This document shows positions 403-29,322 of a stretch of DNA of 32,747 bases, in pieces. A program made the position numbers and the translations under genes. This stretch comes from Actinomycetes bacterium (GTDB taxonomy: Bacteria; Actinomycetota; Acidimicrobiia; Acidimicrobiales; Palsa-688). The stretch is from positions 1 through 32,747 of the forward strand of contig JAKAXN010000004.1 of NCBI GenBank assembly GCA_021816565.1, read 5' to 3'. A model generated the notes under the pieces. The model was given only the letters and a program-made list of their open reading frames with translations, ran no database searches and was not told the DNA's origin. The first letter of the stretch is position 1; each line of letters opens with the position of its first letter.

Positions 403-1767
403 GTGCGGAGAGTCCCGGTCGGTCGGATCCTGGCGGCGGCGCCCGACGACGCGTCCCGCCGGGCAGCCGGCCGCCTGGCCGCCCCGGGCCCCTGGTTCGA
501 CGCCGGCCACGACGCCCGGGTGATCTGGGGATCGTGCCGGGGCAGCGCCCGCCAGCCCTACGAGGTCGCCGCCGATCTGGGCTGCTTCGGCTACCGCTGC
601 AGCTGCCCCAGCCGGAAGCAGCCCTGCAAGCACGTGCTGGCCCTGCTGGTCCTGTGGGCGTCGGGGTCGCCGGCCGTCCCGGCCGGCGTGCCTCCCGCCG
701 AGGTGGCCGCCTGGCTGGCCGGCCGCCCGGCCCCGGCGGCGGGCACGGCCATCGACGACGTTCTGCCCGGGAGCGCCACGGCGGCGGAGGATTCCGACCC
801 GGTGACCGGCCCCCGTCCCCCGGCGGATCCGGAGGCCGTGGCCCGGCGGGCGGCCCAGCGGGCCGGCCGCATCAGGGCCGGCATGGCCGAGCTGCACCTG
901 TGGCTGGCCGACCTGCTGCGTCACGGGTTCGGTTGGGCCCAGGCCCAGCCGTACGGCTTCTGGGACGCCATGGCCGCCCGGCTGGTGGACGCCCAGGCCC
1001 CGGCTGCCGCCGGGCGGGTCCGGGCCCTGGCGGGCACCGCCCGCACCGGCCCCGGGTGGCCGTCCCGGCTGCTGGCCGAGGTGGCCCGCCTGCAGTTGTT
1101 GGCCGCCGGCTGGGCCCGCTTCGACCGGCTCCCGGAGGCCACCCGGGCGGACCTGCGCACCGCCGCCGGCTGGCCCTGGCCCAGCGAGCAGGTACTGGCC
1201 GGGCCCCGGGAGACCGACAGCTGGTACGTGCTCGCCCGGGTGGCCAGCGACGAGGAGCAGGTACGGGTGCAACGGACCTGGCTGTGGGGCCGGCGCAGCG
1301 GCCGGCCGGCGCTGCTGGTGGACTTCGCCCGGCCCGGGGCGGCCTTCGCCTGGGAGCTGTGGCCGGGTGAGGCCATGGAGGCGGCAGTGGCCCGCTTCCC
1401 CGGCTCGGCCCCGCAGCGGGTCCTCATCGCCGAGCGCCTGGGCGATCCGGGCCCGGCCGGGTCGCCGCCGGGCTGGGCCGGCCTGCAGGAGCTGGCCGGG
1501 GTCCGGGGCCGGGCCGCCGCCACCGACCCGTTCCTCGACCGGTGGCCGGTGTCGGTCAGCGGGGTGATCCCCGGGCGGGCGCCGGACGGCGGGTGGATCC
1601 TGGTCGATCGGGCGGGGAGCAGCCTGGCGCTGGATGTGGGGGAGCGGGCCGGGTGGCGGCTGCTGGCCGTCTCGGGGGGTCAGCCGCTGCACGTGCTGGG
1701 AGAGTGGGGCGCCGACGGGGTGGCGCCGCTCGGGGCGTGGGTGGACGACCGGATGGTGATCCTGTGA
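403..1767 (+). CDS. SWIM zinc-finger protein
   Basis: 454 residues. The SWIM motif CxC-x(n)-CxH is visible at Cys66, Cys68, Cys75 and His77 (CSCPSRKQPCKH), within a conserved N-terminal region (LAAAPDDASRRAAGRLA, then IWGSCRGSARQPYEVAADLG). SWIM fingers bind Zn and mediate DNA or protein contacts. The remaining ~370 residues are family-specific and lack another domain I recognise. The gene starts a five-gene operon (SWIM, DUF5691, MoxR, DUF5682, VWA), and its stop overlaps the next start (GTGA at 1764-1767). GTG 403 was chosen because the conserved N-terminus begins within a few residues of it and a leaderless -10 precedes it. Its cellular role is unknown; it may be the substrate-recognition or assembly partner of the MoxR/VWA pair (inference). 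Confidence 0.85.
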   Translation: MRRVPVGRILAAAPDDASRRAAGRLAAPGPWFDAGHDARVIWGSCRGSARQPYEVAADLGCFGYRCSCPSRKQPCKHVLALLVLWASGSPAVPAGVPPAEVAAWLAGRPAPAAGTAIDDVLPGSATAAEDSDPVTGPRPPADPEAVARRAAQRAGRIRAGMAELHLWLADLLRHGFGWAQAQPYGFWDAMAARLVDAQAPAAAGRVRALAGTARTGPGWPSRLLAEVARLQLLAAGWARFDRLPEATRADLRTAAGWPWPSEQVLAGPRETDSWYVLARVASDEEQVRVQRTWLWGRRSGRPALLVDFARPGAAFAWELWPGEAMEAAVARFPGSAPQRVLIAERLGDPGPAGSPPGWAGLQELAGVRGRAAATDPFLDRWPVSVSGVIPGRAPDGGWILVDRAGSSLALDVGERAGWRLLAVSGGQPLHVLGEWGADGVAPLGAWVDDRMVIL

Positions 1768-3320
1768 TCGCAGACCGGGGCTACCCGACGTGGGACGACC
1801 TGGTGGGCGCGGCCGTGCTCGGCACCGAGCGGCGCCCGTTCGCCGGGCTGCCACCGGGCGGCCCGCTCGGGGCGGTGGCCGAGCAGGCGTCCCGGACGGC
1901 CGGGCTGGGCGGGGTGGCCGCCGCCATGTGGGCGTGGCGTCAGGCCGGCTGGTGCCCGGCCCACCCGCCGGCCGGACCGGACCCGGCGGATGCCGCCCCG
2001 GCCGATCCCCGACCGCTCCTGCCCCCCGGCCCGGTCCGGACCCTCCGGGCCATCCTGGAGGACCCGGCCCGGCGCCCGGTGCTGCCCGAGTGGCTGCGGC
2101 TGGCCGCAGGGACCGGCCGCCGCCTGCCGGCCGAGTGGCTGCCGGACCTGCTCGAGGCCTGTCCCCCGGCGGCCCGCCCCGACCTGGAGGCCGCAGCCGG
2201 CCCACGCGCCGCCTGGCTGGCGGCCCATCACCGGGAGTGGTCACTCACCGGGGTGGCTCCCGGTGCCGGGCGGGTGGCGCGGGCGGTCCTCGACGGCGGG
2301 GTGGAGCGGTGGGGCGCCGGCCCGGCGTCGGACCCGGAGCGCCTGCAGGCCCTGGCCGCGGTGCGGGCCGAGAACCCGGACCTGGGCCGCCTCCTGGCCG
2401 AGCGCATCTGGCCCGACGAGCCGGGCACCACCCGGGCGGCGGTCGTCGCCACCCTGGCGGCCGGGCTCTCGCCCGCCGACGAGCCGTTCCTCGAAGCCCG
2501 CCTGGACGACCGCCGCCGGGACGTGCGGGTCGAGGCCGCGGCGCTCCTACGGCGGCTGCCCGACAGCCGGCTGGCCCGGCGGATGGCCGCCCGGACCGTG
2601 CCGCTGGTGCGCGTCGCCGGCTCCGCTCAGCCGGTGTTACGGGTGGCCCTGCCGCCGGAGCCGGATCCGGGCGCCCGCCGGGACGGGATCGGATCGGCCG
2701 GCCGGGCCGGAGGGGATCGAGAATCGGAGCTGGTCGCGATGATCGCCGCCACCCCGCTGGCGGTCTGGGGGCCGGCCCTGGGAGCAGCCCGGTCCCCGGT
2801 CGACCTGGTGCGGTGGGCGGCCCGCTCGGGCCGGCCCGGGGAGCTGCTGCTGGACGGGTGGTCGGCGGCGGCCGCTGCCACCGCCGACCGGGGATGGGCC
2901 CGCAGCCTCCTGGACGGCGGGGCCCGGCCCACCGCCGACCTGGCGGGCCTGGTGGAGCCCGAGGTGGCGGACCGGGCCCTGGCCGGATGGCTGGCCCGCA
3001 CCCCGCTGGCGGACGCTCTCCAGGTCCTGGCCGGGTTGGCGACCCCGTGGTCCGCCCCGCTCAGCCGGGCCGTGCTGGCGGCCGTCAGCGATACCGTCCG
3101 ATCAGGCGACACCTCGGGGGCCGGCCCGGTGCGGGACCGGCTGGCCATGGTGGCGCTGGCCGTCGACGCCGGGCAGGCGCCGGCCACCGCCGACCTGGCC
3201 GACCCCGGGCAGCTGGCGGCCGGGGCCCGCGGGCCGGCCCGGGTGTTCTGGGCCCGGGCCCTCGCCCAGCTCGCCGCCACCGTCCATTTCCGACAGGCCA
3301 TGTACCAGGAGTTCCGATGA
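1764..3320 (+). CDS. DUF5691-like protein
   Basis: 518 residues from GTG 1764, overlapping the SWIM stop by 4 nt and the MoxR start by 4 nt (ATGA at 3317-3320). The N-terminus YPTWDDLVGAAVLGTERRPF fits the (W)xxLVxAALxGTxR signature I associate with DUF5691 proteins, which occur in SWIM-MoxR-VWA operons. The middle (about 170-300) is an alpha-helical, HEAT-like region: repeated Leu/Ala/Arg helices, including a segment resembling an R-x-x-A-A-x-L-L-R-x-L-P repeat that reads as a scaffold. No catalytic motif is seen. Translational coupling on both sides argues for fixed stoichiometry with its neighbours. Open frames much longer than this exist in other phases, but only this one has the conserved domain. 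Confidence 0.75.
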   Translation: MIADRGYPTWDDLVGAAVLGTERRPFAGLPPGGPLGAVAEQASRTAGLGGVAAAMWAWRQAGWCPAHPPAGPDPADAAPADPRPLLPPGPVRTLRAILEDPARRPVLPEWLRLAAGTGRRLPAEWLPDLLEACPPAARPDLEAAAGPRAAWLAAHHREWSLTGVAPGAGRVARAVLDGGVERWGAGPASDPERLQALAAVRAENPDLGRLLAERIWPDEPGTTRAAVVATLAAGLSPADEPFLEARLDDRRRDVRVEAAALLRRLPDSRLARRMAARTVPLVRVAGSAQPVLRVALPPEPDPGARRDGIGSAGRAGGDRESELVAMIAATPLAVWGPALGAARSPVDLVRWAARSGRPGELLLDGWSAAAAATADRGWARSLLDGGARPTADLAGLVEPEVADRALAGWLARTPLADALQVLAGLATPWSAPLSRAVLAAVSDTVRSGDTSGAGPVRDRLAMVALAVDAGQAPATADLADPGQLAAGARGPARVFWARALAQLAATVHFRQAMYQEFR

Positions 3321-4459
3321 ACCAGCCCACCCGCCGCCGCGGGTCCCCGCCGTCCCCGGCCGATGACCGGCTCGACGGTCCGGCCCCGGTGCAGAAGGCC
3401 CACGCCGAGCAGCAGTACGCCGCAGAGCTGAGCGCCCTGGCCGCCGCCGACGAGCGGCCCCGACCCCCCCGTTGGCGGATGTCACCGCAGGCGGTGGTCG
3501 ACTACCTGATGGGCACGGTCCTCCCCGACGCGACGGTGGTGTCCCCCAAGTACATAGGGCCCCGCCGGCTGATGGAGGTGGCGGTGGCCACCCTGGCCAC
3601 CGACCGGGCCCTGCTCCTGCTCGGGGTGCCGGGGACGGCCAAGACATGGGTCAGCGAGCATCTGGCCGCCGCGGTCAGCGGCGACTCCACCCTGCTGGTG
3701 CAGGGCACCTCCGGCACCGCCGAGGAGGCCATCCGCTACGGCTGGGACTACGCCCGGCTCATCGCCGCCGGCCCGAGTCCCGACGCCCTGGTGCCGAGCC
3801 CGGTCATCAGGGCCATGCGGGAGGGTTCGCTGGCCCGCATCGAGGAGCTGACCCGCATCCCGTCCGACGTCCAGGACGCCCTGATCACCATCCTGTCGGA
3901 GAAGACCCTGCCCGTCCCCGAGCTCGGCACGGAGGTGCAGGCGGTCCGGGGGTTCAACCTGATCGCCACCGCCAACGACCGGGACCGGGGGGTCAACGAG
4001 CTGTCCTCGGCGCTGCGACGCCGGTTCAACACCGTGGTCCTGCCGCTGCCGGCCACCCTGGAGGACGAGGTGGAGATCGTCCGGCTCCGGGTGGACGAGA
4101 TGGGTCGGGCCCTGGAACTGCCGCCGGCCTCCCCGGCCCTGGAGGAGATCCGCCGGGTGGTCACGGTCTTCCGGGAGCTGCGCGAGGGAGTGACCGCCGA
4201 CGGCCGCACCAAGGTCCGCCAGCCGTCGGCCACCCTGAGCACCGCCGAGGCCATATCGGTGATGACCAACGGGCTGGCCCTCTCCGCCCACTTCGGCACC
4301 GGGGAGCTCGGACCCGACGACGTGGCCGCCTCCCTGGTGGGGGCGGTGGTGAAGGACCCGGTGCAGGACCAGGTGGCCTGGCAGGAGTACCTCGAGACGG
4401 TGGCCCGGGACCGCAAGGGGTGGTCCGACCTGTACCGGGCCTGCCGGGCCATCAGCTGA
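3317..4459 (+). CDS. MoxR-family AAA+ ATPase
   Basis: 380 residues from ATG 3317. Walker A is GVPGTAKT (residues 103-110). The Walker B region has the form RIEELTRIPSDVQDALITIL followed by SEK, in which an Arg-Ile-Glu-Glu replaces the common hydrophobic-DE. This variant is typical of the MoxR subfamily found with DUF5682. Sensor 1 is FNLIATANDRDRG, and the arginine-finger region is ALRRRFN. MoxR ATPases work as chaperone-like hexamers with VWA proteins that bind a metal at a MIDAS site; a VWA gene lies two genes downstream. An N-terminal extension of about 55 residues precedes the AAA core. The 24-bp gap to the next gene carries a strong ribosome site. Confidence 0.92.
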   Translation: MNQPTRRRGSPPSPADDRLDGPAPVQKAHAEQQYAAELSALAAADERPRPPRWRMSPQAVVDYLMGTVLPDATVVSPKYIGPRRLMEVAVATLATDRALLLLGVPGTAKTWVSEHLAAAVSGDSTLLVQGTSGTAEEAIRYGWDYARLIAAGPSPDALVPSPVIRAMREGSLARIEELTRIPSDVQDALITILSEKTLPVPELGTEVQAVRGFNLIATANDRDRGVNELSSALRRRFNTVVLPLPATLEDEVEIVRLRVDEMGRALELPPASPALEEIRRVVTVFRELREGVTADGRTKVRQPSATLSTAEAISVMTNGLALSAHFGTGELGPDDVAASLVGAVVKDPVQDQVAWQEYLETVARDRKGWSDLYRACRAIS

Positions 4460-4483
4460 CCGGCTCGATGGGAGGGTGAGGCG

Positions 4484-6760
4484 ATGACGGTGCGGGTGTT
4501 CGGTATCCGCCACCATGGCCCCGGATCGGCCCGGGCCCTGTCGGCTTCCCTCTCCGCCTGGCAGCCCGACGCGGTGCTGATCGAGGGTCCGCCCGAGGCC
4601 GCGCCGGTGCTGGCGCTGGCCGCGGCCGCCGGAATGCGACCGCCGGTGGCGCTGCTGGCCTACCTCCCGGCCCACCCGGCCCGGTCGTCGTTCTACCCCA
4701 TGGCGGCCTGGTCCCCCGAGTGGGTGGCGCTGCGCCACGCTCTGGCCGGGTCGGTCCCGGTCCGCATGATCGACCTGCCGGCCGCAGCATTCCTGGTCCC
4801 CGACCGGGACCGGGCGGGGCTCCCCCCAGCCGGCGAGGGGGACCGGTCCGGTGCCGGTCCCGGGGTGGTCGACCCCGCCGGGGGCGATCCCCTGGCCCGG
4901 CTGGCGGCTGCGGCCGGCTACGACGACCCGGAGCGGTGGTGGGAGGACGTGGTCGAGCACCGGGGTGGGGAGGAGCCCTGGGAGGCCATAACCGAGGCCA
5001 TGGCCGCGGTGCGGGCCGAGGTCGGGGTCCCGCCCGGTCGGGACACGCTCCTCGAAGCCCGCCGGGAGGCGGCCATGCGCCGCCACATCCGGGCCGCCGA
5101 GAAGGCCCACGACCGGGTGGCGGTGGTCTGCGGGGCCTGGCACGCCCCGGCCCTGGTCGAGCGGGGACCGGCCCGGGCCGACAGCGAGCTGCTGAAGGGG
5201 CTGACCAGGGAGAAGGCGACCGTCACCTGGGTGCCCTGGACCAACGGCCGGTTGAGCTTCTCCAGCGGCTACGGCGCCGGGGTCACCTCCCCGGGCTGGT
5301 ACGAGCACCTGTTCGTCTCCCCCGACCGGCCGGTCGAGCGGTGGATGGTGAAGGTGGCCGGGCTGCTGCGGGCCGAGCGCGGCGACGCACCACCGGCGTC
5401 GGTGATCGATGCGGTCCGGCTGGCCGAGGCCCTGGCCGCCCTGAGGGGCCGGCCCCTCGCCGGCCTGTCCGAGTGCCGGGATGCGGCCCGGGCCGCGCTC
5501 GCAGGAGGCTACGACGCCACGCTCGAACTGATCGACCGCCGCCTGGTCGTCGGCGAGGCGGTGGGGGAGGTACCCGCCGACACTCCGATGGTGCCCCTGG
5601 CCGCCGACCTGGCCGGCGCGCAGCGCCGGCTCCGGCTGAAACCCGAGGCCGGGATCCGGTACCTGGAGCTGGACCTGCGTCGCGACATCGACCTGGCCCG
5701 CAGCCGGCTGCTGCACCGCCTGGACCTGCTGGCGATCCCGTGGGGGGTTCCCCAGCCGGACCAGCGCGGTACCGGGACGTTCCGGGAGGAGTGGGTGCTC
5801 GGCTGGGAACCCGAGCTGGCGGTACGGGTCATAGAGGCCAGCGTCCACGGCACCACCGTGGCCGGCGCGGCGACCGCCCGGGTGACGGAGCGAGCCGGTC
5901 AGGGTGTCCGGCTGGGCCAGGTGACCGACCTGATCGAACGGTGCCTGCTGGCTGACCTGCCCGACGCCCTGCCGGCGGTGATGGCCGCCCTCGACGCCCG
6001 GGCCGCCCTGGCCACCGACGTCAGCGAGTTGATGGACGCAGTGGTCCCGCTGGCCCGGACCCTGCGCTACGGCTCGGTGCGCCGCGATGACGTTGGGGCC
6101 CTGGGCTCGGTGGTGTCCGGCATCGTGGCCCGGGCCCGGGCCAGCCTGGGCCCGGCGTGCGCCAGCCTGGACGACGACGCCGCGGGCGCCGCCGGCCGGC
6201 GGATCTCGGCGGTGGCCTCCGCCCTCGGGTCGCTGGAGGGCGACGGGCTCTCCGGCCTGCACGGCGAGTGGCTGGAGGCCCTGGTCCCCCTGAGCCGGTC
6301 GCAGTCGCTGCACGGGCTGGTCGCCGGCCGGACGGCCCGGCTGCTGCTCGATGCCGGGCGGCTCAGTTCGGAGGAGGTGGCCGACCGGCTGTCGCTGGCG
6401 CTGTCGAGGGGCGAGCGGCCGGCCCGGGGGGCGGCCTGGGTGGAGGGCCTGGTCGCCGGCAGCGGCCTGCTGCTGGTCCACGACCGGTCCCTGCTGGCGG
6501 TCATCGACGACTGGCTGGCCGGCGTCGGCGAGGATGCCTTCGATGAGGTGCTGCCCCTCCTCAGGCGGGCCTTCGCCGACTTCCAGCCGGCCGAGCGGCG
6601 CATGATCGGCCGGGCCGCGGCCGGGCTGTCGGCTCCGGCCGGCGGCGGTCCTGTCGGCCCGGCGGCCGCCGCTCCCGGCATCGACGAGGAGCGGGCGGCG
6701 GCGGTGCTACCGCTGCTGGCGGCCCTCCTCGGCCCCCTGCCCGGAGAGGACGGCCGGTGA
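4484..6760 (+). CDS. DUF5682 family protein (possible EreA/ChaN/TraB-like fold)
   Basis: 758 residues from ATG 4484, after a strong ribosome site (GGGAGGGTGAGG). The N-terminus VRVFGIRHHGPGSARAL followed by PDAVLIEGPPEA is the hallmark of DUF5682. The IRHHGPGS, IEGPPEA and later VAVVCGAWHAPAL segments recall the His/Glu/GAxH motifs of the TraB/EreA/ChaN superfamily, so a hydrolase- or metal-binding core in the first ~260 residues is plausible (inference). The C-terminal ~450 residues are helical and without known motifs. The stop overlaps the VWA start (GTGA at 6757-6760). As the largest protein of the operon, it may be the effector or substrate remodelled by MoxR/VWA. No experimental role is known to me. 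Confidence 0.8.
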   Translation: MTVRVFGIRHHGPGSARALSASLSAWQPDAVLIEGPPEAAPVLALAAAAGMRPPVALLAYLPAHPARSSFYPMAAWSPEWVALRHALAGSVPVRMIDLPAAAFLVPDRDRAGLPPAGEGDRSGAGPGVVDPAGGDPLARLAAAAGYDDPERWWEDVVEHRGGEEPWEAITEAMAAVRAEVGVPPGRDTLLEARREAAMRRHIRAAEKAHDRVAVVCGAWHAPALVERGPARADSELLKGLTREKATVTWVPWTNGRLSFSSGYGAGVTSPGWYEHLFVSPDRPVERWMVKVAGLLRAERGDAPPASVIDAVRLAEALAALRGRPLAGLSECRDAARAALAGGYDATLELIDRRLVVGEAVGEVPADTPMVPLAADLAGAQRRLRLKPEAGIRYLELDLRRDIDLARSRLLHRLDLLAIPWGVPQPDQRGTGTFREEWVLGWEPELAVRVIEASVHGTTVAGAATARVTERAGQGVRLGQVTDLIERCLLADLPDALPAVMAALDARAALATDVSELMDAVVPLARTLRYGSVRRDDVGALGSVVSGIVARARASLGPACASLDDDAAGAAGRRISAVASALGSLEGDGLSGLHGEWLEALVPLSRSQSLHGLVAGRTARLLLDAGRLSSEEVADRLSLALSRGERPARGAAWVEGLVAGSGLLLVHDRSLLAVIDDWLAGVGEDAFDEVLPLLRRAFADFQPAERRMIGRAAAGLSAPAGGGPVGPAAAAPGIDEERAAAVLPLLAALLGPLPGEDGR

Positions 6761-7971
6761 GCACCGCCCGGGACGGGGACCGGCTGCGGCGGTGGCGGCT
6801 GGCTCTGGGCGACGACGCGGCCCCGGCCCTGCCGGTGGAACTGGGCCGCCTCGACGCCGGACGCGACGCCGCCCTGGCCGCCCTGTACGGGACCGGCGAG
6901 GCCGAGGCGGGCCGGGGCCCTGGCGCCATCCAGTCCCGGGTGGGCCGCCGCTCCGCCGGCCTCGGCCGCTCCGCCCCGGCCGTGGCCCGGTGGCTGGGCG
7001 ACATACGCAGCTACTTCCCGGCCAGCGTGGTCCGGGTCATGCAGCAGGACGCCATGGACCGGCTGGGGCTGCGCCAGCTGCTGGTCGAGCCGGAGATGCT
7101 CGACGCCGTCACCCCCGACGTGTCCCTCGTCGCCGCCCTGGTGGCGTTGAACCGGGTCATTCCCGACCAGAGCCGGGAGACCGCCCGGGCCGTGGTCCGC
7201 CAGGTCACCGCCGAGCTGGAGCGGAGGCTGGCCCAGCGGACCCGGGCCGCGGTGCGCGGCTCGCTGGCCCGGGCCGCCCGGACCCGCCGGCCCCGGACCG
7301 GTGAGATCGACTGGGACCGGACCATCCGGGCCAACCTGCGCCACTACCGGCCGGAGATCGCCACCATCATCCCGGAGCGGCTGATCGGCTACGGCCGGCA
7401 CCGCAGGGCGGTCGAGCGCCACGTCATCCTGGCCGTCGACCAGAGCGCGTCGATGGCCGAGTCGGTGGTCTACGCCAGCGTGTTCGCCACGGTCCTGGCC
7501 GGGATGGGAGCCCTCGACACGTCGCTGGTCGTGTTCGACACCGAGGTGGTGGACCTCACGGCCCAGCTCGAGGACCCGGTGGACATCCTCTTCGCCACCC
7601 AGCTGGGGGGAGGAACCGACATCAACCAGGCCATTGCCTACTGCCAGGGCCTGGTCACCCGCCCCGAGGACACGGTGTTGGTGCTGATCAGCGACCTGAT
7701 GGAGGCAGGACGGCGCGACGAGTGCGTGGCCCGCATGGCGGCCCTGGTGGACTCGGGGGTGGTGACGGTGGCGCTGCTGGCGTTGAACGACGAGGGGTCA
7801 CCGGCGTTCGACCACGACCTGGCGGCCGAACTGGCCGCAGTGGGGGTGAGCGCCTTTGCCTGCACGCCCGACCTTTTTCCGGATCTGATGGCGGCCGCCA
7901 TGGAGCGACGGGACCTGGGTCGGTGGGCGGCCGGGCAGGGGGTCACCACGGCGGCGCCCGGCCGACCGTGA
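6757..7971 (+). CDS. VWA domain protein, CoxE-like MoxR partner
   Basis: 404 residues. The C-terminal VWA domain (about 220-385) has an intact MIDAS: DQSAS at 228-232 (DxSxS), Thr in GGGTDIN near 287, and a later Asp in LVLISDLMEAG. It begins RHVILAVDQSASMAES. The N-terminal ~215 residues are helical and Arg-rich, as in CoxE-type proteins paired with MoxR ATPases. It is the last gene of the operon and coupled to DUF5682 by a 4-nt overlap. It ends 3 bp from the stop of the convergent anti-sigma gene, leaving almost no room for a dedicated terminator. Confidence 0.9.
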   Translation: MSTARDGDRLRRWRLALGDDAAPALPVELGRLDAGRDAALAALYGTGEAEAGRGPGAIQSRVGRRSAGLGRSAPAVARWLGDIRSYFPASVVRVMQQDAMDRLGLRQLLVEPEMLDAVTPDVSLVAALVALNRVIPDQSRETARAVVRQVTAELERRLAQRTRAAVRGSLARAARTRRPRTGEIDWDRTIRANLRHYRPEIATIIPERLIGYGRHRRAVERHVILAVDQSASMAESVVYASVFATVLAGMGALDTSLVVFDTEVVDLTAQLEDPVDILFATQLGGGTDINQAIAYCQGLVTRPEDTVLVLISDLMEAGRRDECVARMAALVDSGVVTVALLALNDEGSPAFDHDLAAELAAVGVSAFACTPDLFPDLMAAAMERRDLGRWAAGQGVTTAAPGRP

Positions 7972-7974
7972 GCC

Positions 7975-8448
7975 TCAGTGGCTGGCCGGGTCGGAGTCGC
8001 TGCGCTCTATGTGGCGGAACGCCTGGTCGACCGTGTTGACCCCCGACAGGTCGACGCAGTCGTCGGGGGTCTCCTCCGGCTGGGGCGGCCCGAGCTCGGC
8101 CCACACCACCTTGCCATCGCCGCGGTTCTCGATGCCCCAGGTGGTGGCCAGGCGGGACACCAGCGCCAGGCCCCGGCCGCTGGTCGCATCGGGCGGGCAC
8201 GCGGCCTGCACCGGCAGCCGGGAGTTCTCGTCGTAGACCTCGACCCGAACCTTCGACCCCTCCACCGCCAACCGCAGCTGGATGGCCGTGCGGGCGTGCA
8301 GGATGGCGTTGGTGATCAGCTCGCTGGTGACCAGCACGACCGGCTCCAGGTGGTCGGTGGCCTCCCACGATGTCAGCCGGTCACGGACGAAGCGCCTGGC
8401 GGCGGTCACCATGCGGGGGTCGCTCTCCAGTTCCAGGCAGTCATCCAT
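7975..8448 (-). CDS. RsbW-like anti-sigma factor / HATPase domain protein
   Basis: 157 residues. The whole protein is one GHKL/HATPase_c_2 domain: N box ELITNAILHA (43-52), a G1-like region VEVYDENS (70-76) and a G2 box TSGRGLALVSRLA (89-101). Such proteins bind ATP, sequester a sigma factor and phosphorylate an anti-anti-sigma (STAS) partner. Phosphorylation is reversed by PP2C/SpoIIE phosphatases, and one lies two genes upstream on the same strand, fused to KaiB. The 112-bp gap to kaiC leaves open whether it shares the transcript. No STAS partner or sigma factor gene is in the window. The start is ATG 8448, with only a weak ribosome site. The tail after about 130 is divergent. Confidence 0.85.
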   Translation of the reverse strand: MDDCLELESDPRMVTAARRFVRDRLTSWEATDHLEPVVLVTSELITNAILHARTAIQLRLAVEGSKVRVEVYDENSRLPVQAACPPDATSGRGLALVSRLATTWGIENRGDGKVVWAELGPPQPEETPDDCVDLSGVNTVDQAFRHIERSDSDPASH

Positions 8449-8560
8449 GGGTCATCACCAGCACCGACACCCCGTATTTAGGGAACGAGACACAACGAGC
8501 CTACCCGGAGGGCGGCGAAACCTCACAGTCCCAGCGCCGCTTCCGCCGGTTCCACCACCA

Positions 8561-10024
8561 CTACGGTGCCACCCCTCTGATCAGATGGCCGATGTCGGGG
8601 AAGGGGTCGGCCATCTCCATCCCGGCGTCGGAGATGCGGAACTCCCGCACCGACTTGTCGTGGTCGGACCCCCTCATCTTCAGCACCTGCACCCCGCGCC
8701 GCAGCTCACCCCCCACCGGGACGTAGTGCAGCAGGGTGATGACATCGCTGATCGTCGACACGTGCAGCTCGCTCGAGGCTTCCGATCCCAGGAAGTCCGT
8801 GGAGCTGCTGGTGACCAGGCCGGCGAGGGACTGCCATTTGATGTGCAGCGTCAGCCCGATGACGTAGTCCCGGAAGCTGTTGACCGTGGCGACGCGCTGC
8901 AGGGCGGTCAGGCTGTCGATGGCCACCCGGTCCGGGCGGAAGTCGTCGATGGCCTTCTTCACCCGCTGCAGGTGGTCCTCGAGCGACGCCGACTCCGGCG
9001 CCTCGGCCACGATTCTCAGCCGCCCGGCCCGCTCCATGGCGGCCAGGTCCAGGCCCCAGTTCCGGCCGTTGCGGATCAGCTGGTCGTGGCTCTCCTCGAA
9101 CGAGTGCAGCAGGGACTTCTGGCCGGCCTGCACCCCGCCGGCGGCGAAGAGGGCGGCCAGCATCGACTTGCCGGTCCCGGTGGAGCCGGCCACCAGCCAC
9201 AGCGACTTCTCGAACAGCCCGCCGCAGAGCATGGCGTCGAGCTCGGCCACCCCGCAGCTCAGACGGCGCTCGGAGGTGGCGTAGTCGATGGAGTCGACCG
9301 CCACCGGCACCACCACGATGCCCTCACCCGGCAGGAGGGTGAAGAGGTGCTCCCCCTTGCGGTGCGGCCCGCCGCGCATCTTCAGGATCTCGATGGTGCG
9401 CCGGCGCTTCTCGCGCGTGAGGGCGTTGCGCAGGATGATGATGTTGTCGGCGACGAACTCCTCGAAACCCAGGTGGGAGATGGGCCCGTAGTCGTCGGTC
9501 CGCTCCGCCGTGACCGCCGTCGTGACCCCGGCGTCGTGGAGGGCGTCGGCCAGGCGGAATAGGGCCTGGCGGGCCGGTGCCACCCGGTCGAACTGGGTGA
9601 TCAACGCCCCCACCGAGTCGATGGCCACCCTCCGGGCCCCGACGCGGGCCACCGCCTGGGTGATGCGGGCCAGCAGCGGGCCCAACCCGTAGTCGTCGCC
9701 GGTGAAGACCGTGTCCATCTGGCTGCGGGGGGAGGCGTCCACGAACGCCCACTGGCCGGCCGCCTCCCACGCCCCGATGTCCCAGCCGAGGGAGCGCATG
9801 TTGCGCCGGATGCTCTCCGGGCGCTCCTCGAAGGTGACGAACACCCCGGTCTCCCCGGCGGATATGCCGCTGGCCAGGAACTGCGTGGCGAAGACGGTCT
9901 TGCCCGAACCGGCGGTGCCGGTGACCAGCGACAGCTGACCCCGGGGCAGGCCGCCGTGGGTGATCATCTCCAGCCCGGGGATCCCCACCCCCACCCGATC
10001 GGTGCTCTCGGGATGCGTTGCCAT
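8561..10024 (-). CDS. kaiC: KaiC-like double-domain ATPase/autokinase
   Basis: 487 residues with tandem RecA-like KaiC domains. CI has Walker A GTAGSGKT (36-43) and the catalytic Glu pair FEER (65-68). CII has Walker A GSTGTGKS (280-287) and FEES (309-312). The segment ELHVSTISDVITLLHYV aligns with cyanobacterial HISTITDTIILLQYV, so Ser423 and Thr424 match the S. elongatus autophosphorylation pair Ser431/Thr432, and Ser418 aligns with Thr426. KMRGSDHDKSVREFRISDAG also matches. The protein stops at LIRGVAP, about where the cyanobacterial protein continues into its A-loop and KaiA-binding tail, so those elements are missing, in keeping with no kaiA here. The start codon overlaps the stop of the upstream PP2C-KaiB gene by one base (TGATG), giving translational coupling. 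KaiC normally acts as a hexameric timer; here it probably acts through the fused KaiB domain (inference). Confidence 0.92.
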   Translation of the reverse strand: MATHPESTDRVGVGIPGLEMITHGGLPRGQLSLVTGTAGSGKTVFATQFLASGISAGETGVFVTFEERPESIRRNMRSLGWDIGAWEAAGQWAFVDASPRSQMDTVFTGDDYGLGPLLARITQAVARVGARRVAIDSVGALITQFDRVAPARQALFRLADALHDAGVTTAVTAERTDDYGPISHLGFEEFVADNIIILRNALTREKRRRTIEILKMRGGPHRKGEHLFTLLPGEGIVVVPVAVDSIDYATSERRLSCGVAELDAMLCGGLFEKSLWLVAGSTGTGKSMLAALFAAGGVQAGQKSLLHSFEESHDQLIRNGRNWGLDLAAMERAGRLRIVAEAPESASLEDHLQRVKKAIDDFRPDRVAIDSLTALQRVATVNSFRDYVIGLTLHIKWQSLAGLVTSSSTDFLGSEASSELHVSTISDVITLLHYVPVGGELRRGVQVLKMRGSDHDKSVREFRISDAGMEMADPFPDIGHLIRGVAP

Positions 10025-11097
10025 CAGTAGGTCTCCTCGGAGTAGGGGAGTTGCAGGGCCCGGGCCAGCTCGGCCGGGGAGCGCAGGCCGCCCACCACCC
10101 GGAGGGCGGGCCGGGGCAGCAGCCGGACCACGGTGGGTGCGGCGAGCACCTTGTCCGAGTCGGCCAGCCCGGTGGAGGCGGTGATGTCGATGAAGTCCAC
10201 CTCCACCATCAGGTACGGCGACAGCTGCTCGACCATGGCCTCCACCACGTGCTGGGCCCGGATCGACATCAGATCCTGCGGGTCCAAATAGACCCGCAGC
10301 GCCACCGGGGCCGGCGCCGCCGGCGGGGGGACCGGCCGGCTCCGGCCCCCGTTCGGGAATTGCGAACCGGTGGCCGGGCGGCGGGTCCTCTCCAGGTAGC
10401 CGGGAGTGGTCCGGTCGAACGGCTCGGGGGAGCGCAGCCGGACCGAGACCGCGGTGGCGTCGTCGTCGGGTTGGCCCAGCCGTTCGGTGGCCCGCCGGGC
10501 CAGCTCGGCGGCGCTGGCCGCGGCGCCGGTCATGCCCCGGGCCACGTCCAGGGCCACGGACAGGCCGTCGGTCAGCGAAGCCCCCCTCCGCTCCACCAGC
10601 CCGTCGGTGAACAAGAACAGCGCGCTGTCCTCGCCCAGCTCATAGGTGATCGCCCGCCGGGGGGTGGCCACCCCCAGCGGGGGGTCCACCCGCTCCTCCA
10701 GGAATCGGGCCTCCGATCCGGTGGCGGCCACGATGGGCAGGTGCCCGGCGTTGATCACATCGGCCCGCCGGGCCACCGGGTCGAGCACCGCGCAGACCAC
10801 AGTGGCGATCTTGTCCACCCCCCGGGACACGAGCAGCTCGTCGAGCGGGCGCAGCAGGTCCGGTCCCTGCGGGGCGTGGCGCAGGGCCCGGCGCAGCTCG
10901 AAGCGCAGCTCCTCGCCCAGCTCGGCCGCCGCCGGCCCCGACGCCGGGGCGTCACCCAGGATGACCGCCACCCGTCCGTCGCGCAGGTCGACCATGTCGT
11001 GGAAGTCGCCCGAGGTCTCCCCCTGCGCCGGCCTCCAGCACACCTCCACCGCCACCGACTGGATCCGGTTGGCGGAGGACCGCCACAGCCCGGGCAT
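10024..11097 (-). CDS. PP2C/SpoIIE-type phosphatase fused to a C-terminal KaiB domain
   Basis: 357 residues. Residues ~15-222 form a PP2C/SpoIIE phosphatase with all metal-binding acidic positions kept: GDFHD (30-34), GDAPASGPAA (48-57, equal to GDVxGHGxxAA but with His replaced), NAGHLP (116-121), LFTDGLVE (162-169) and DDDATAV (211-217). A Pro/Arg-rich linker (~223-265) leads to residues 266-352: LRVYLDPQDLMSIRA, then VDFIDI, then DKVLAAPTVVRLLPRP and LRVVGGL. This matches KaiB (LKLYVAGNTPNSVRA, DKILATPTLAKVLPPP, RRIIGDL). KaiB binds KaiC in a phosphorylation-dependent way, so the phosphatase would be recruited to or controlled by the neighbouring KaiC. The likely substrate is a phosphorylated anti-anti-sigma factor, suggested by the RsbW-like gene nearby (inference). 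GAGCGAGGG precedes ATG 11097. Confidence 0.88.
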   Translation of the reverse strand: MPGLWRSSANRIQSVAVEVCWRPAQGETSGDFHDMVDLRDGRVAVILGDAPASGPAAAELGEELRFELRRALRHAPQGPDLLRPLDELLVSRGVDKIATVVCAVLDPVARRADVINAGHLPIVAATGSEARFLEERVDPPLGVATPRRAITYELGEDSALFLFTDGLVERRGASLTDGLSVALDVARGMTGAAASAAELARRATERLGQPDDDATAVSVRLRSPEPFDRTTPGYLERTRRPATGSQFPNGGRSRPVPPPAAPAPVALRVYLDPQDLMSIRAQHVVEAMVEQLSPYLMVEVDFIDITASTGLADSDKVLAAPTVVRLLPRPALRVVGGLRSPAELARALQLPYSEETY

Positions 11098-11240: not shown

Positions 11241-12008
11241 TCAGGCGGTGAAGCCCGGGTCCAGCTCCAGGAAGTGCCACACCAGGGCTTCGAAACCGAT
11301 GGAGAAGAGGCGCCACTCCTGGCGCCGCCCTCCCGGACCGCTCGGCAGGCGGATCTTGCGGGTACTGGCCGGGTCGATGCGGTCCCTGAGGGCGCACCCC
11401 TCCGACAGCGACACCACCGCCAGGGCGAACTGCTCCAGGGTGAGCCCGGGCCGCAGGCGCAGGCCCAGCACCCCCATGAAACCCTCCATGACCCCGGCCA
11501 GCCGGTCTGTGAGGGCGGCGTAGGTGGCCTGGGCCGCACCGGTCACCCGATCGTCCCATTCGCCGTCGGGCCGGGAGGCGATGTTGCCCCAGGTGCCGAC
11601 GAACAGGTGCCAGGTGCGGGACTGGGACAGAGCGTCGGCGTGAGCCCCGCCGGCCGCCCGGCACAGCTCCGAGACGGCGCTCCGCCGGCCCTCCAGCGAG
11701 GACAGATCGGCCTTCTTCAGAACCTGATCGGCCTTCTTCAGGGCCGCCTGCAACTCGTCGGCGTTCTCGTCGCTCACCGCCAGGCTGAGGACCTCACCCT
11801 GGTAGTCCTCGTTGTCGCGCCAGATGCGGCGGATCACCGAGGCGTTGGTCACCCGGATGCCGGTCTCCTCCTGAACCCGGTCGAAGACGCGCTTGAAGGT
11901 CAGTCGTTCGGCTCCGGTGGCCAGCCCTTCCTCTTTCAGCATCTCCAGGCCGGTGGCCAGCAGGAGCTCCTTGAGCTCGGTCCTGGTCATCCTCACCGGG
12001 CGAACCAT
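11241..12008 (-). CDS. TetR-like transcriptional regulator
   Basis: 255 residues from ATG 12008, which follows GAGGGAAT. The N-terminus MTRTELKELLLATGLEMLKEEGLATGAERLTFKRVFDRVQ resembles a TetR N-terminal helix pair. The following ETGIRVTNASVIRRIWRDNEDYQ fits the recognition helix plus the Y/F-x-H/N region, though the spacing is longer than in classical TetR proteins. The C-terminal helical part (about 90-250) would be the ligand-binding domain. A frame open upstream to 12299 has no start signal of its own. The gene is divergent from a MarR gene with 131 bp between them. Target unknown; the neighbouring thioesterase and MarR gene are candidates. Confidence 0.7.
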   Translation of the reverse strand: MVRPVRMTRTELKELLLATGLEMLKEEGLATGAERLTFKRVFDRVQEETGIRVTNASVIRRIWRDNEDYQGEVLSLAVSDENADELQAALKKADQVLKKADLSSLEGRRSAVSELCRAAGGAHADALSQSRTWHLFVGTWGNIASRPDGEWDDRVTGAAQATYAALTDRLAGVMEGFMGVLGLRLRPGLTLEQFALAVVSLSEGCALRDRIDPASTRKIRLPSGPGGRRQEWRLFSIGFEALVWHFLELDPGFTA

Positions 12009-12121
12009 ATTCCCTCGAAGGCCGGTAACTCGCAGTCGCGTCACTCTGCGTGAGATGCGCGCGGCGAGTGACCGTCCGACTGGCAAAATCCCACATACGC
12101 TTCGCCAGGCAAACCTTTCGC

Positions 12122-12139
12122 TTGTCGTACAATCGGGGT
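12122..12139 (+). promoter_or_regulatory. Leaderless -10 with overlapping palindromic operator (MarR gene)
   Basis: TACAAT at 12128-12133 lies 6 nt before ATG 12140, the arrangement of a leaderless transcript. The palindrome TTGTCGTACAA (12122-12132) overlaps this -10, as an autorepressor site for the MarR product would. Confidence 0.5.
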
Positions 12140-12751
12140 ATGGGTGAGCCTTCAGGCGGCGGCCCCCACCGGGCCGGAGGGCCCCGCAACGGCGGGGTCC
12201 GTCGTGGCGCGGCCGCTCCCCGGAGGTCCAACGGCCGGGACCGGGCCATCGAGCGGTACCTGGAGCTGCGGCCCCAGATCCGGGCCCGGATGGAGTCATC
12301 GGTGCCCCAGGACCTGCGGGCCCAGTTCTCGGCGGTGACGGCCCACCAGCTACGGGCCCTGGCCCTGCTGCGGGGCGGGGGGTTGAGCATGCGCCAGCTG
12401 GCGGCCGCCCTCGGGGTGGTGGGGGCCACGACCAGCGTCCTGGCCGACCGGCTGGTGGCTCAGGGCCTGGCCGAGCGGGAGCACGACGCCAGCGACCGGC
12501 GGGTGGTGCGCCTGGTGCTGACCGAGCAGGGCGGCCGGGTGGCAGCCAAGTACATCGAAGCTCAGAGGCGGGCGGCGCGGGCCCTGTTCGACCGGCTCAG
12601 CGACGCCCAGATCGAAGCCTGGATGGACGTGCTCGAGACCCTGGCCGGTTCCGGTTCCGGTTCCGGCTCCGGCTCCGCCTCCGGGGACCCTCCCGGGGTC
12701 CCGCGGGGTGCCGGGACAGCCCGGGTCAGCCGGCCCCCAGCCGGGCGCTGA
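12140..12751 (+). CDS. MarR family transcriptional regulator
   Basis: 203 residues from ATG 12140. The winged helix is clear: FSAVTAHQLRALALLRGGGLSMRQLAAALGVVGATTSVLADRLVAQGLAEREHDASDRRVVRLVLTEQG, with the recognition helix around VVGATTSVLADRL and the wing DASDRRVVRLVLT. The N-terminal ~35 residues are Gly/Arg/Pro-rich and probably disordered. After the last dimerisation helix the protein ends in a Gly-Ser tract encoded by hexanucleotide repeats, and its final 26 bp overlap the convergent thioesterase gene. It is divergent from the TetR-like gene. Probably autorepressing, judged by the palindrome on its -10. Ligand and regulon are unknown. Confidence 0.85.
   Translation: MGEPSGGGPHRAGGPRNGGVRRGAAAPRRSNGRDRAIERYLELRPQIRARMESSVPQDLRAQFSAVTAHQLRALALLRGGGLSMRQLAAALGVVGATTSVLADRLVAQGLAEREHDASDRRVVRLVLTEQGGRVAAKYIEAQRRAARALFDRLSDAQIEAWMDVLETLAGSGSGSGSGSASGDPPGVPRGAGTARVSRPPAGR
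12645..12682. repeat. Hexanucleotide tandem repeat (CCGGTT/CCGGCT) in the MarR C-terminus
   Basis: Three CCGGTT units, two CCGGCT and one CCGCCT encode a Gly-Ser tail. The 6-bp unit keeps the frame, so slippage would change tail length without breaking the gene. Confidence 0.7.
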
Positions 12752-29305: not shown

Positions 29306-29322
29306 CCTCGACCAGCGGTTTT

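Follow-up and report, generated by a model that had tools for sequence, protein, structure and literature searches.

A 32,747-nucleotide (nt) stretch of genomic DNA from an Actinomycetes bacterium of the Acidimicrobiales (assembly GCA_021816565.1, contig JAKAXN010000004.1, positions 1 to 32,747), here referred to as the window, was found to encode a PP2C/SpoIIE phosphatase fused to a C-terminal KaiB domain, directly followed by a kaiC gene on the same strand. The fusion gene and kaiC form a conserved gene unit, and comparison of KaiC sequences indicates that KaiC changed together with the fusion, its B-loop being remodelled and its A-loop and tail lost. This arrangement suggests that KaiC, as a timer or an energy sensor, directly controls a phosphatase and not a histidine kinase. 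The reading that we favour, and consider moderately probable, is that of a KaiC-docked Ser/Thr phosphatase with a STAS-type output, which would make the predicted protein a phosphatase counterpart of SasA. An earlier note on this DNA had described the locus as a three-gene partner-switching system controlled by KaiBC; the fusion/KaiC unit of that proposal stands, while its third gene, encoding an RsbW-like protein, does not hold as a conserved part.

The fusion and kaiC form a conserved gene pair

All three genes lie on the minus strand, as do all features of the locus given below: the fusion at 10024..11097, the two-domain KaiC at 8561..10024 and the RsbW-like HATPase_c_2 protein at 7975..8448. 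The earlier note had placed them there, and the open reading frames (ORFs), their coding bias and Pfam agree with it. Strong coding bias was seen in each, with guanine-cytosine content at codon positions 1/2/3 of 0.77/0.53/0.95 for the fusion, 0.67/0.48/0.96 for KaiC and 0.70/0.48/0.94 for the HATPase. The claimed 1-nt overlap between the fusion and kaiC follows from the ORF coordinates, and the HATPase gene starts 112 bp 3′ of the KaiC stop.

Among 35 genomes of one family, five carried a KaiC with 69–73% identity to that of the window, and the same five genomes, and none besides, carried the fusion at E ≤ 1e-45. The co-occurrence in related genomes on which the earlier note had made its proposal depend is therefore seen for the fusion together with KaiC. 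Both genes were adjacent and in the same order in all five; they abut in loci L113, L114 and L132, are 3 bases apart in L131 and overlap by 4 bases in L133, distances that depend on the start codons chosen by the script. In 395 genomes of one class, KaiC at 1e-120 gave a single match of 47% identity. A second order-level sample, of 362 genomes and overlapping with the first one of 367, yielded at 1e-150 no KaiC beyond those of the two close genomes known before.

Linkage was also sought through contig sizes, using the best 120 of 4635 KaiC matches and the best 120 of 275 matches to the window HATPase, from which the few entries with no contig size were dropped. Fifteen of the 51 contigs in the fusion list were identical in nt size to one of 119 KaiC contig sizes, where an offset control gave an expectation of 0.49; this fusion list includes the phosphatase-only P0028 and P0049–P0052 and omits P0013, for which there is no contig size.

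Among the relatives examined, the genes that surround the pair vary and include a DEAH helicase with DUF3418 (L113) and an APH-like protein (L132). Such variation would fit a KaiB that acquired a phosphatase for a target that has nothing to do with KaiC or sigma control, for example the substrate of a Ser/Thr kinase. That the fusion is paired with a remodelled KaiC speaks for a role of KaiC, whichever protein is the substrate, and we regard this explanation as very unlikely.

The fusion joins a SpoIIE-type phosphatase to KaiB

The protein consists of a SpoIIE domain, a flexible linker and KaiB, with no other domain recognised by Pfam. Its phosphatase domain (residues 1–222; 10432..11097) was matched by SpoIIE over residues 40–221 (8.2e-27, 94.8 bits against a cut-off of 25), and the 39 residues preceding this match showed no N-terminal family such as the RsbT-binding domain of RsbU-type proteins. 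The output domain being SpoIIE/PP2C, the histidine kinase output of SasA is absent. The metal-binding positions D31, D49, D165, D212 and D213 are Asp in 43–45 of 46 aligned fusions, so that both the domain and the metal-binding set of PP2C/RsbU-type phosphatases are present. Most of this domain was modelled with a predicted local distance difference test score (pLDDT) above 85. The linker (residues 223–263; 10309..10431, delimited by model and alignment) was of low confidence at residues 228–252 of the full-length model, and its span varies from 8 to 106 residues across the 46 fusion relatives.

A protein search returned 117 relatives of the fusion, with both Pfam domains in 42; five others (P0023, P0024, P0027, P0040 and P0041) received no Pfam KaiB call, yet 92–100% of the query was aligned to them. 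For one relative, P0008, the source names an Acidimicrobiales metagenome-assembled genome. In the alignment of 46 fusions (alignment A1 leaves out the short P0028 and P0044), the invariant positions of the KaiB part are A319, P321, R325, P328, P330, G336, L348 and P351. Of the five matches ranked immediately below the fusions and the five short proteins that have the phosphatase alone, three (P0053, P0055 and P0057) join a phosphatase to an RsbW-type HATPase domain. In a scan of genome contigs with the fusion alignment, identity in the best segment did not exceed 43% for any of the best 80 loci, and it was mainly the phosphatase part that matched; no relative was met in a scan of viral contigs. 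At 1e-45 the alignment found none in 395 genomes of one class, at most five candidates per genome having been scored in the rows examined, and in 58 genomes of another order the single match (positions 27–194) covered the phosphatase part only. No description of a KaiB-phosphatase fusion was met in open-access titles and abstract beginnings, subscription papers being mostly outside that search, and the available portion of PMC5520375 holds no mention of Actinobacteria, Acidimicrobi or fusions that bears on it.

The KaiB domain is predicted to be fold-switched

The KaiB domain (residues 264–357; 10024..10308) was detected by Pfam at 1.2e-6, and KaiB chains of the PDB matched the same stretch at about 1e-6. 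Two KaiB equivalog models scored below their cut-offs (30.1 against 110 and 27.2 against 145.3 bits). A profile built from the KaiB domains of the fusions recovered free KaiB adjoining kaiC in 11 of 16 distant actinobacterial loci. In the AlphaFold2 (AF2) model, of pLDDT 90.6, the domain has the topology E-H-E-h-E-E-H, that of the fold-switched, thioredoxin-like form, and ranks 1–8 of a Foldseek search with this model were all KaiB chains (4kun, 5jwr, 5jwo, 5jyt, 5n8y and 8fwj). A chance Pfam match is ruled out by the PDB matches, the recovery of free KaiB and the Foldseek ranks, and the model together with these ranks identifies the KaiB fold. Judging from the model, the domain is predicted to be in the fold-switched form that binds KaiC.

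Two positions deserve attention here. In the 46 fusions, the residue aligned with KaiB G88 is Ala, Asp, Ser or Thr but never Gly, and the one aligned with D90 is Gln, His, Arg or Glu but never Asp. Mutations G88A and D90R are proposed, in the accessible text of PMC12618002, to favour fold-switched KaiB.

KaiC linked to the fusion is remodelled

KaiC of the window was matched by PF06745 in two stretches (1.7e-103), which shows the two RecA-like domains of a KaiC, and by PRK09302 at 552 bits (cut-off 408); TIGR02655 reached 472.8 bits, below its cut-off of 546.25. Its best PDB match was the KaiC 8zn5 (1.4e-154). The catalytic EE pairs of CI and CII are kept, as is HVST, which contains Ser423-Thr424 (8753..8758), the equivalents of S. 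elongatus phosphosites S431-T432 in an alignment with PDB KaiC. We compared 21 fusion-linked KaiC, 6 assigned by locus and 15 by matching contig size, with those of the 16 distant loci, which come from 15 genomes and show 47–51% identity to the window KaiC. The Ser-Thr phosphosite pair was present in 20 of the 21, with Ser-Ser in P0135.

The CI B-loop (residues 98–112, SPRSQMDTVFTGDDY; 9689..9733) carries a clade-specific motif at the loop known to dock KaiB and SasA. A DTVFTG-type B-loop was found in 20 of 21 fusion-linked KaiC and in none of the 16 distant KaiC. As described in the sections of PMC6378743 at hand, the cyanobacterial B-loop is the docking place of KaiB and of the KaiB-like domain of SasA, and the A-loop (488–497) switches KaiC between kinase and phosphatase modes. 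The C-terminus of the window KaiC is shortened (8561..8590), ending 8 residues past the equivalent of E487, and the other 20 fusion-linked KaiC end 3–4 residues past it, against 13–42 in the 16 distant KaiC; thus the A-loop and KaiA-binding tail of the KaiABC type are missing. A tree of 143 KaiC places the fusion-linked sequences in a group of 95 that includes no kaiB- or HATPase-linked member.

By analogy, the short C-terminus suggests autokinase activity that needs no KaiA, and for this reason KaiC itself may be the substrate. The main competing explanation is, accordingly, that the fused phosphatase acts on KaiC, an always-active autokinase lacking its A-loop and a phosphatase delivered by KaiB making up a two-protein, KaiA-free cycle. 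The short ends of all 21 fusion-linked KaiC and the retained phosphosites and Glu pairs speak for it. Against it, KaiB docks on CI, at a distance from the CII phosphosites, and linkers can have only 8–9 residues (P0042 and P0048 among them, on contigs size-matched to a KaiC), which favours a phosphatase held at the CI face. The literature points both ways. Release of the A-loop in S. elongatus (E487A, T495A) activates the autokinase with no KaiA (PMC8538168, in the part available), and in R. sphaeroides KaiC lacking its C-terminal extension, the available part of PMC10076222 describes KaiB binding as splitting the hexamer to monomers, and therefore CII could be exposed to a phosphatase. On the other hand, the KaiA-free R. 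sphaeroides KaiC can dephosphorylate itself according to the ATP/ADP ratio, so a phosphatase is not strictly needed (same part of PMC10076222), and the substrates described for this branch of PPM phosphatases in the available text of PMC11418112 are STAS proteins. On balance we find it unlikely that KaiC is the substrate. The fuller scheme, in which an always-on KaiC would be reset by the KaiB-borne phosphatase, docking would open or break the tail-less ring and there may be a STAS output as well, is in our view decidedly unlikely.

Other KaiC, listed with no assigned neighbours, number 105, and 66 of them have the DTVFTG-type B-loop; these may represent unseen fusion loci or another arrangement. 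P0208–P0230, with short ends and 62–67% identity, lie on contigs of up to 180 kb with sizes absent from the fusion list, and may be paired with divergent fusions or with another kind of partner. Several of P0231–P0237 carry an EDTTMLG-like B-loop, the group ending 3–18 residues past the E487 equivalent, and they are possible intermediates.

Free kaiB is the usual neighbour of kaiC in other Actinomycetota

In the distant loci, free kaiB adjoins kaiC in 12 of 16, eleven of which were found by the profile and one, L119, by eye, its sequence being partly masked. The gene lies upstream of kaiC in 10 and downstream in 2 (L126 and L128). In three of the four remaining loci the gene immediately 5′ of kaiC encodes an RsbW-like HATPase, and the fourth has neither; L127 was grouped with the kaiB-linked loci in the B-loop and C-terminus comparison, though kaiB was undetected there. 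Since a profile of the fused KaiB finds these free KaiB, the fusion joins a phosphatase to the usual neighbour of KaiC.

The RsbW-like gene is an occasional neighbour

The third gene of the window encodes a HATPase_c_2 protein (7.9e-13 by Pfam) that scores below the cut-offs of the families spIIAB (19.4 against 135 bits) and RsbA (41.1 against 210 bits). According to the earlier note, the KaiC-controlled phosphatase and this neighbouring RsbW-like kinase would act in opposite directions on one STAS protein, with release of a sigma factor as the result. The same-strand gene order in the window agrees with this, and the HATPase retains an E and an N which we take to be the N-box residues. Two HATPase contigs coincide in size with the KaiC list (6459 and 21220; 0.79 expected), and of the 117 sizes listed, two recur in the fusion list, namely that of the window and 21220. 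These coincidences alone say little, but the HATPases on the coinciding contigs are 71–79% identical to that of the window and their KaiC 82–83% identical, so a real HATPase/KaiC linkage is likely in the near relatives of the window.

Outside these near relatives the picture is different. The sequence retrieved around kaiC from the five fusion genomes has no HATPase gene, four of the genomes being informative downstream, as the L133 contig ends 366 bp after kaiC; the best-scoring HATPase in these genomes was 45% identical to that of the window and none exceeded 47%. Most of the best 120 of 275 HATPase relatives are on contigs unmatched among the best 120 of 4635 KaiC. The HATPase was accordingly rejected as a core part of the system and is apparently an optional neighbour, linked only in the near relatives of the window; the partnering of an RsbW-like protein with this phosphatase, which the earlier note had required, is largely contradicted beyond them. 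As for the STAS and sigma partners that it had expected elsewhere in the genome, STAS proteins occur in all five fusion genomes (4 to 11 matches each), but none of the 28 window ORFs scanned was a STAS or sigma gene; scanning of the flanks of relatives covered a part of them. A SigB-type promoter pattern, in the form we take it to have, had no exact match near the Kai locus; its single match in the window is distant, at 29318, and 9 of 100 shuffles gave at least one match. Taken together, these observations make three-gene partner switching improbable, although partner switching by the fusion phosphatase as such is possible.

Some distant loci pair kaiC with a HATPase in another way. The HATPase is directly upstream of kaiC, at the place often taken by kaiB, in L118 (7733–9805), L120 (6904–9176) and L122 (7344–9505), with no kaiB found by the profile in the fetched stretch, and in L118 a GAF/PAS PP2C is next to the pair. 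These HATPases form their own clade (support 0.985) and show 33–37% identity to that of the window, on which grounds they were rejected as its orthologues; their KaiC also form a clade of their own (support 1.0). With the clades separate, Kai and RsbW-like genes must have met at least twice, and this repeated association is suggestive, though no proof, of a functional link.

A KaiC-docked phosphatase as the favoured reading

The claim of the earlier note that the KaiB-PP2C fusion works with KaiC is supported by the conserved linkage, the kept metal-binding residues, the fold of the KaiB model and the loss of the KaiC A-loop and tail. We regard the core of the favoured reading, a phosphatase docked on KaiC, as highly probable, and a STAS protein as its substrate as about evenly balanced between yes and no. 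STAS is the default choice of substrate because this branch of bacterial PPM phosphatases acts on STAS proteins, the described substrates in the available text of PMC11418112, and because of the STAS matches in the fusion genomes. The competing explanations are partly compatible with the favoured one, and not all are mutually exclusive.

Under the favoured reading, the KaiB domain would stay mostly fold-switched and would bind the CI ring of KaiC in one nucleotide or phosphorylation state. Binding would gather up to six phosphatase domains on the KaiC ring and thereby switch them on or off. With its A-loop gone, KaiC would autophosphorylate with no KaiA and reset with the ATP/ADP ratio, as in the KaiBC hourglass of R. 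sphaeroides. The most likely substrate of the output would be an anti-anti-sigma protein of the STAS type, encoded at another place in the genome, and the RsbW-like protein would have joined the locus in the window's own sublineage.

Several points weigh against this reading, in addition to the missing HATPase, STAS and sigma genes described above. The KaiB domain passed the Pfam cut-off narrowly (28.5 against 27 bits), and that of the L131 fusion stayed below it (20.7 bits). From Foldseek rank 9 on, the KaiB model matched generic thioredoxins, among which the SasA N-domains 6x61 and 1t4y took ranks 14 and 15. The fold-switched form comes from AF2, whose output depends on the alignment supplied, and wild-type KaiB frequently populates the ground state. 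The change at the G88 site is not unique to the fusion, since some free actinobacterial KaiB also have Ala there. Linkage by size coincidence is inferred, the contigs being unread. In the fusion P0047 several catalytic residues are lost, with GNL, TAG and GAA replacing the catalytic motifs. Of the 105 KaiC with no assigned neighbours, 100 likewise stop within 6 residues of the E487 equivalent, so that the short end may be independent of the fusion. The node of the group of 95 KaiC has a support of 0.017, that is, none, and the fusion-linked KaiC probably descend from one change and hence are not independent cases.

Concerning P0047 itself, it is possibly a pseudo-phosphatase that retains docking alone.

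Surroundings of the locus

Between 7800 and 12400 of the window no sigma-70-type promoter was found, and terminator-like sites numbered 1, against 1.0 expected. A gene without a Pfam match (11241–12299, minus strand) lies 143 bp upstream of the fusion on the same strand, and its likeness to a transcription regulator was noticed by eye only. On the plus strand, at 403–7971 and convergent to the Kai genes, there is a cluster encoding a SWIM protein, DUF5691, a MoxR-like AAA_5 protein, DUF5682 and VWA_CoxE, which is presumably a conserved module.

Comparison with known Kai and phosphatase systems

In all known Kai outputs that we can name, the signal passes via histidine kinases. A direct connection of KaiC to a Ser/Thr phosphatase would, if true, be a new class of Kai output and would give these actinobacteria a direct route from the state of KaiC to Ser/Thr signalling. 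It would also be a small, two-protein system in which KaiC function could be tested without KaiA, and the paired changes of KaiC, in the docking loop and in the A-loop and tail, indicate the exact residues for testing. Were KaiC the substrate, the Kai timer or energy gauge would have a dedicated phosphatase in place of autodephosphorylation controlled by KaiA.

The nearest known protein in design is SasA, in which, as outlined in the available sections of PMC6378743, a catalytic output likewise shares its chain with a KaiB-like domain of thioredoxin fold, the part that docks on the B-loop of KaiC CI. The fusion differs in having a Ser/Thr phosphatase instead of a histidine kinase, in its reversed domain order and in a docking domain that is KaiB by sequence. 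The R. sphaeroides KaiBC hourglass resembles the present pair in combining KaiB and KaiC with no KaiA, KaiC autophosphorylating alone there (PMC10076222, in the part available) and KaiA-free action of KaiC being proposed here by analogy; the R. sphaeroides KaiC has a long coiled-coil C-terminus and its KaiB is free, whereas in the present pair the C-terminus is short and KaiB shares its chain with a phosphatase. RsbU/SpoIIE PPM phosphatases share the catalytic domain, of which the fusion has kept the metal-binding Asp, but the fusion has no recognised RsbT-binding, PAS or GAF domain, its only other domain being the C-terminal KaiB. The best structural match of the KaiB model, Legionella pneumophila KaiB (4kun), is free-standing, unlike the fused KaiB. 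That protein reportedly does not bind its KaiC, which is a warning for inferring KaiC binding here. Finally, the kaiBC loci of other Actinomycetota are alike in that kaiB adjoins kaiC in most of the distant loci; their KaiB is unfused, and their KaiC keeps the longer end past the E487 equivalent and has no DTVFTG-type B-loop.

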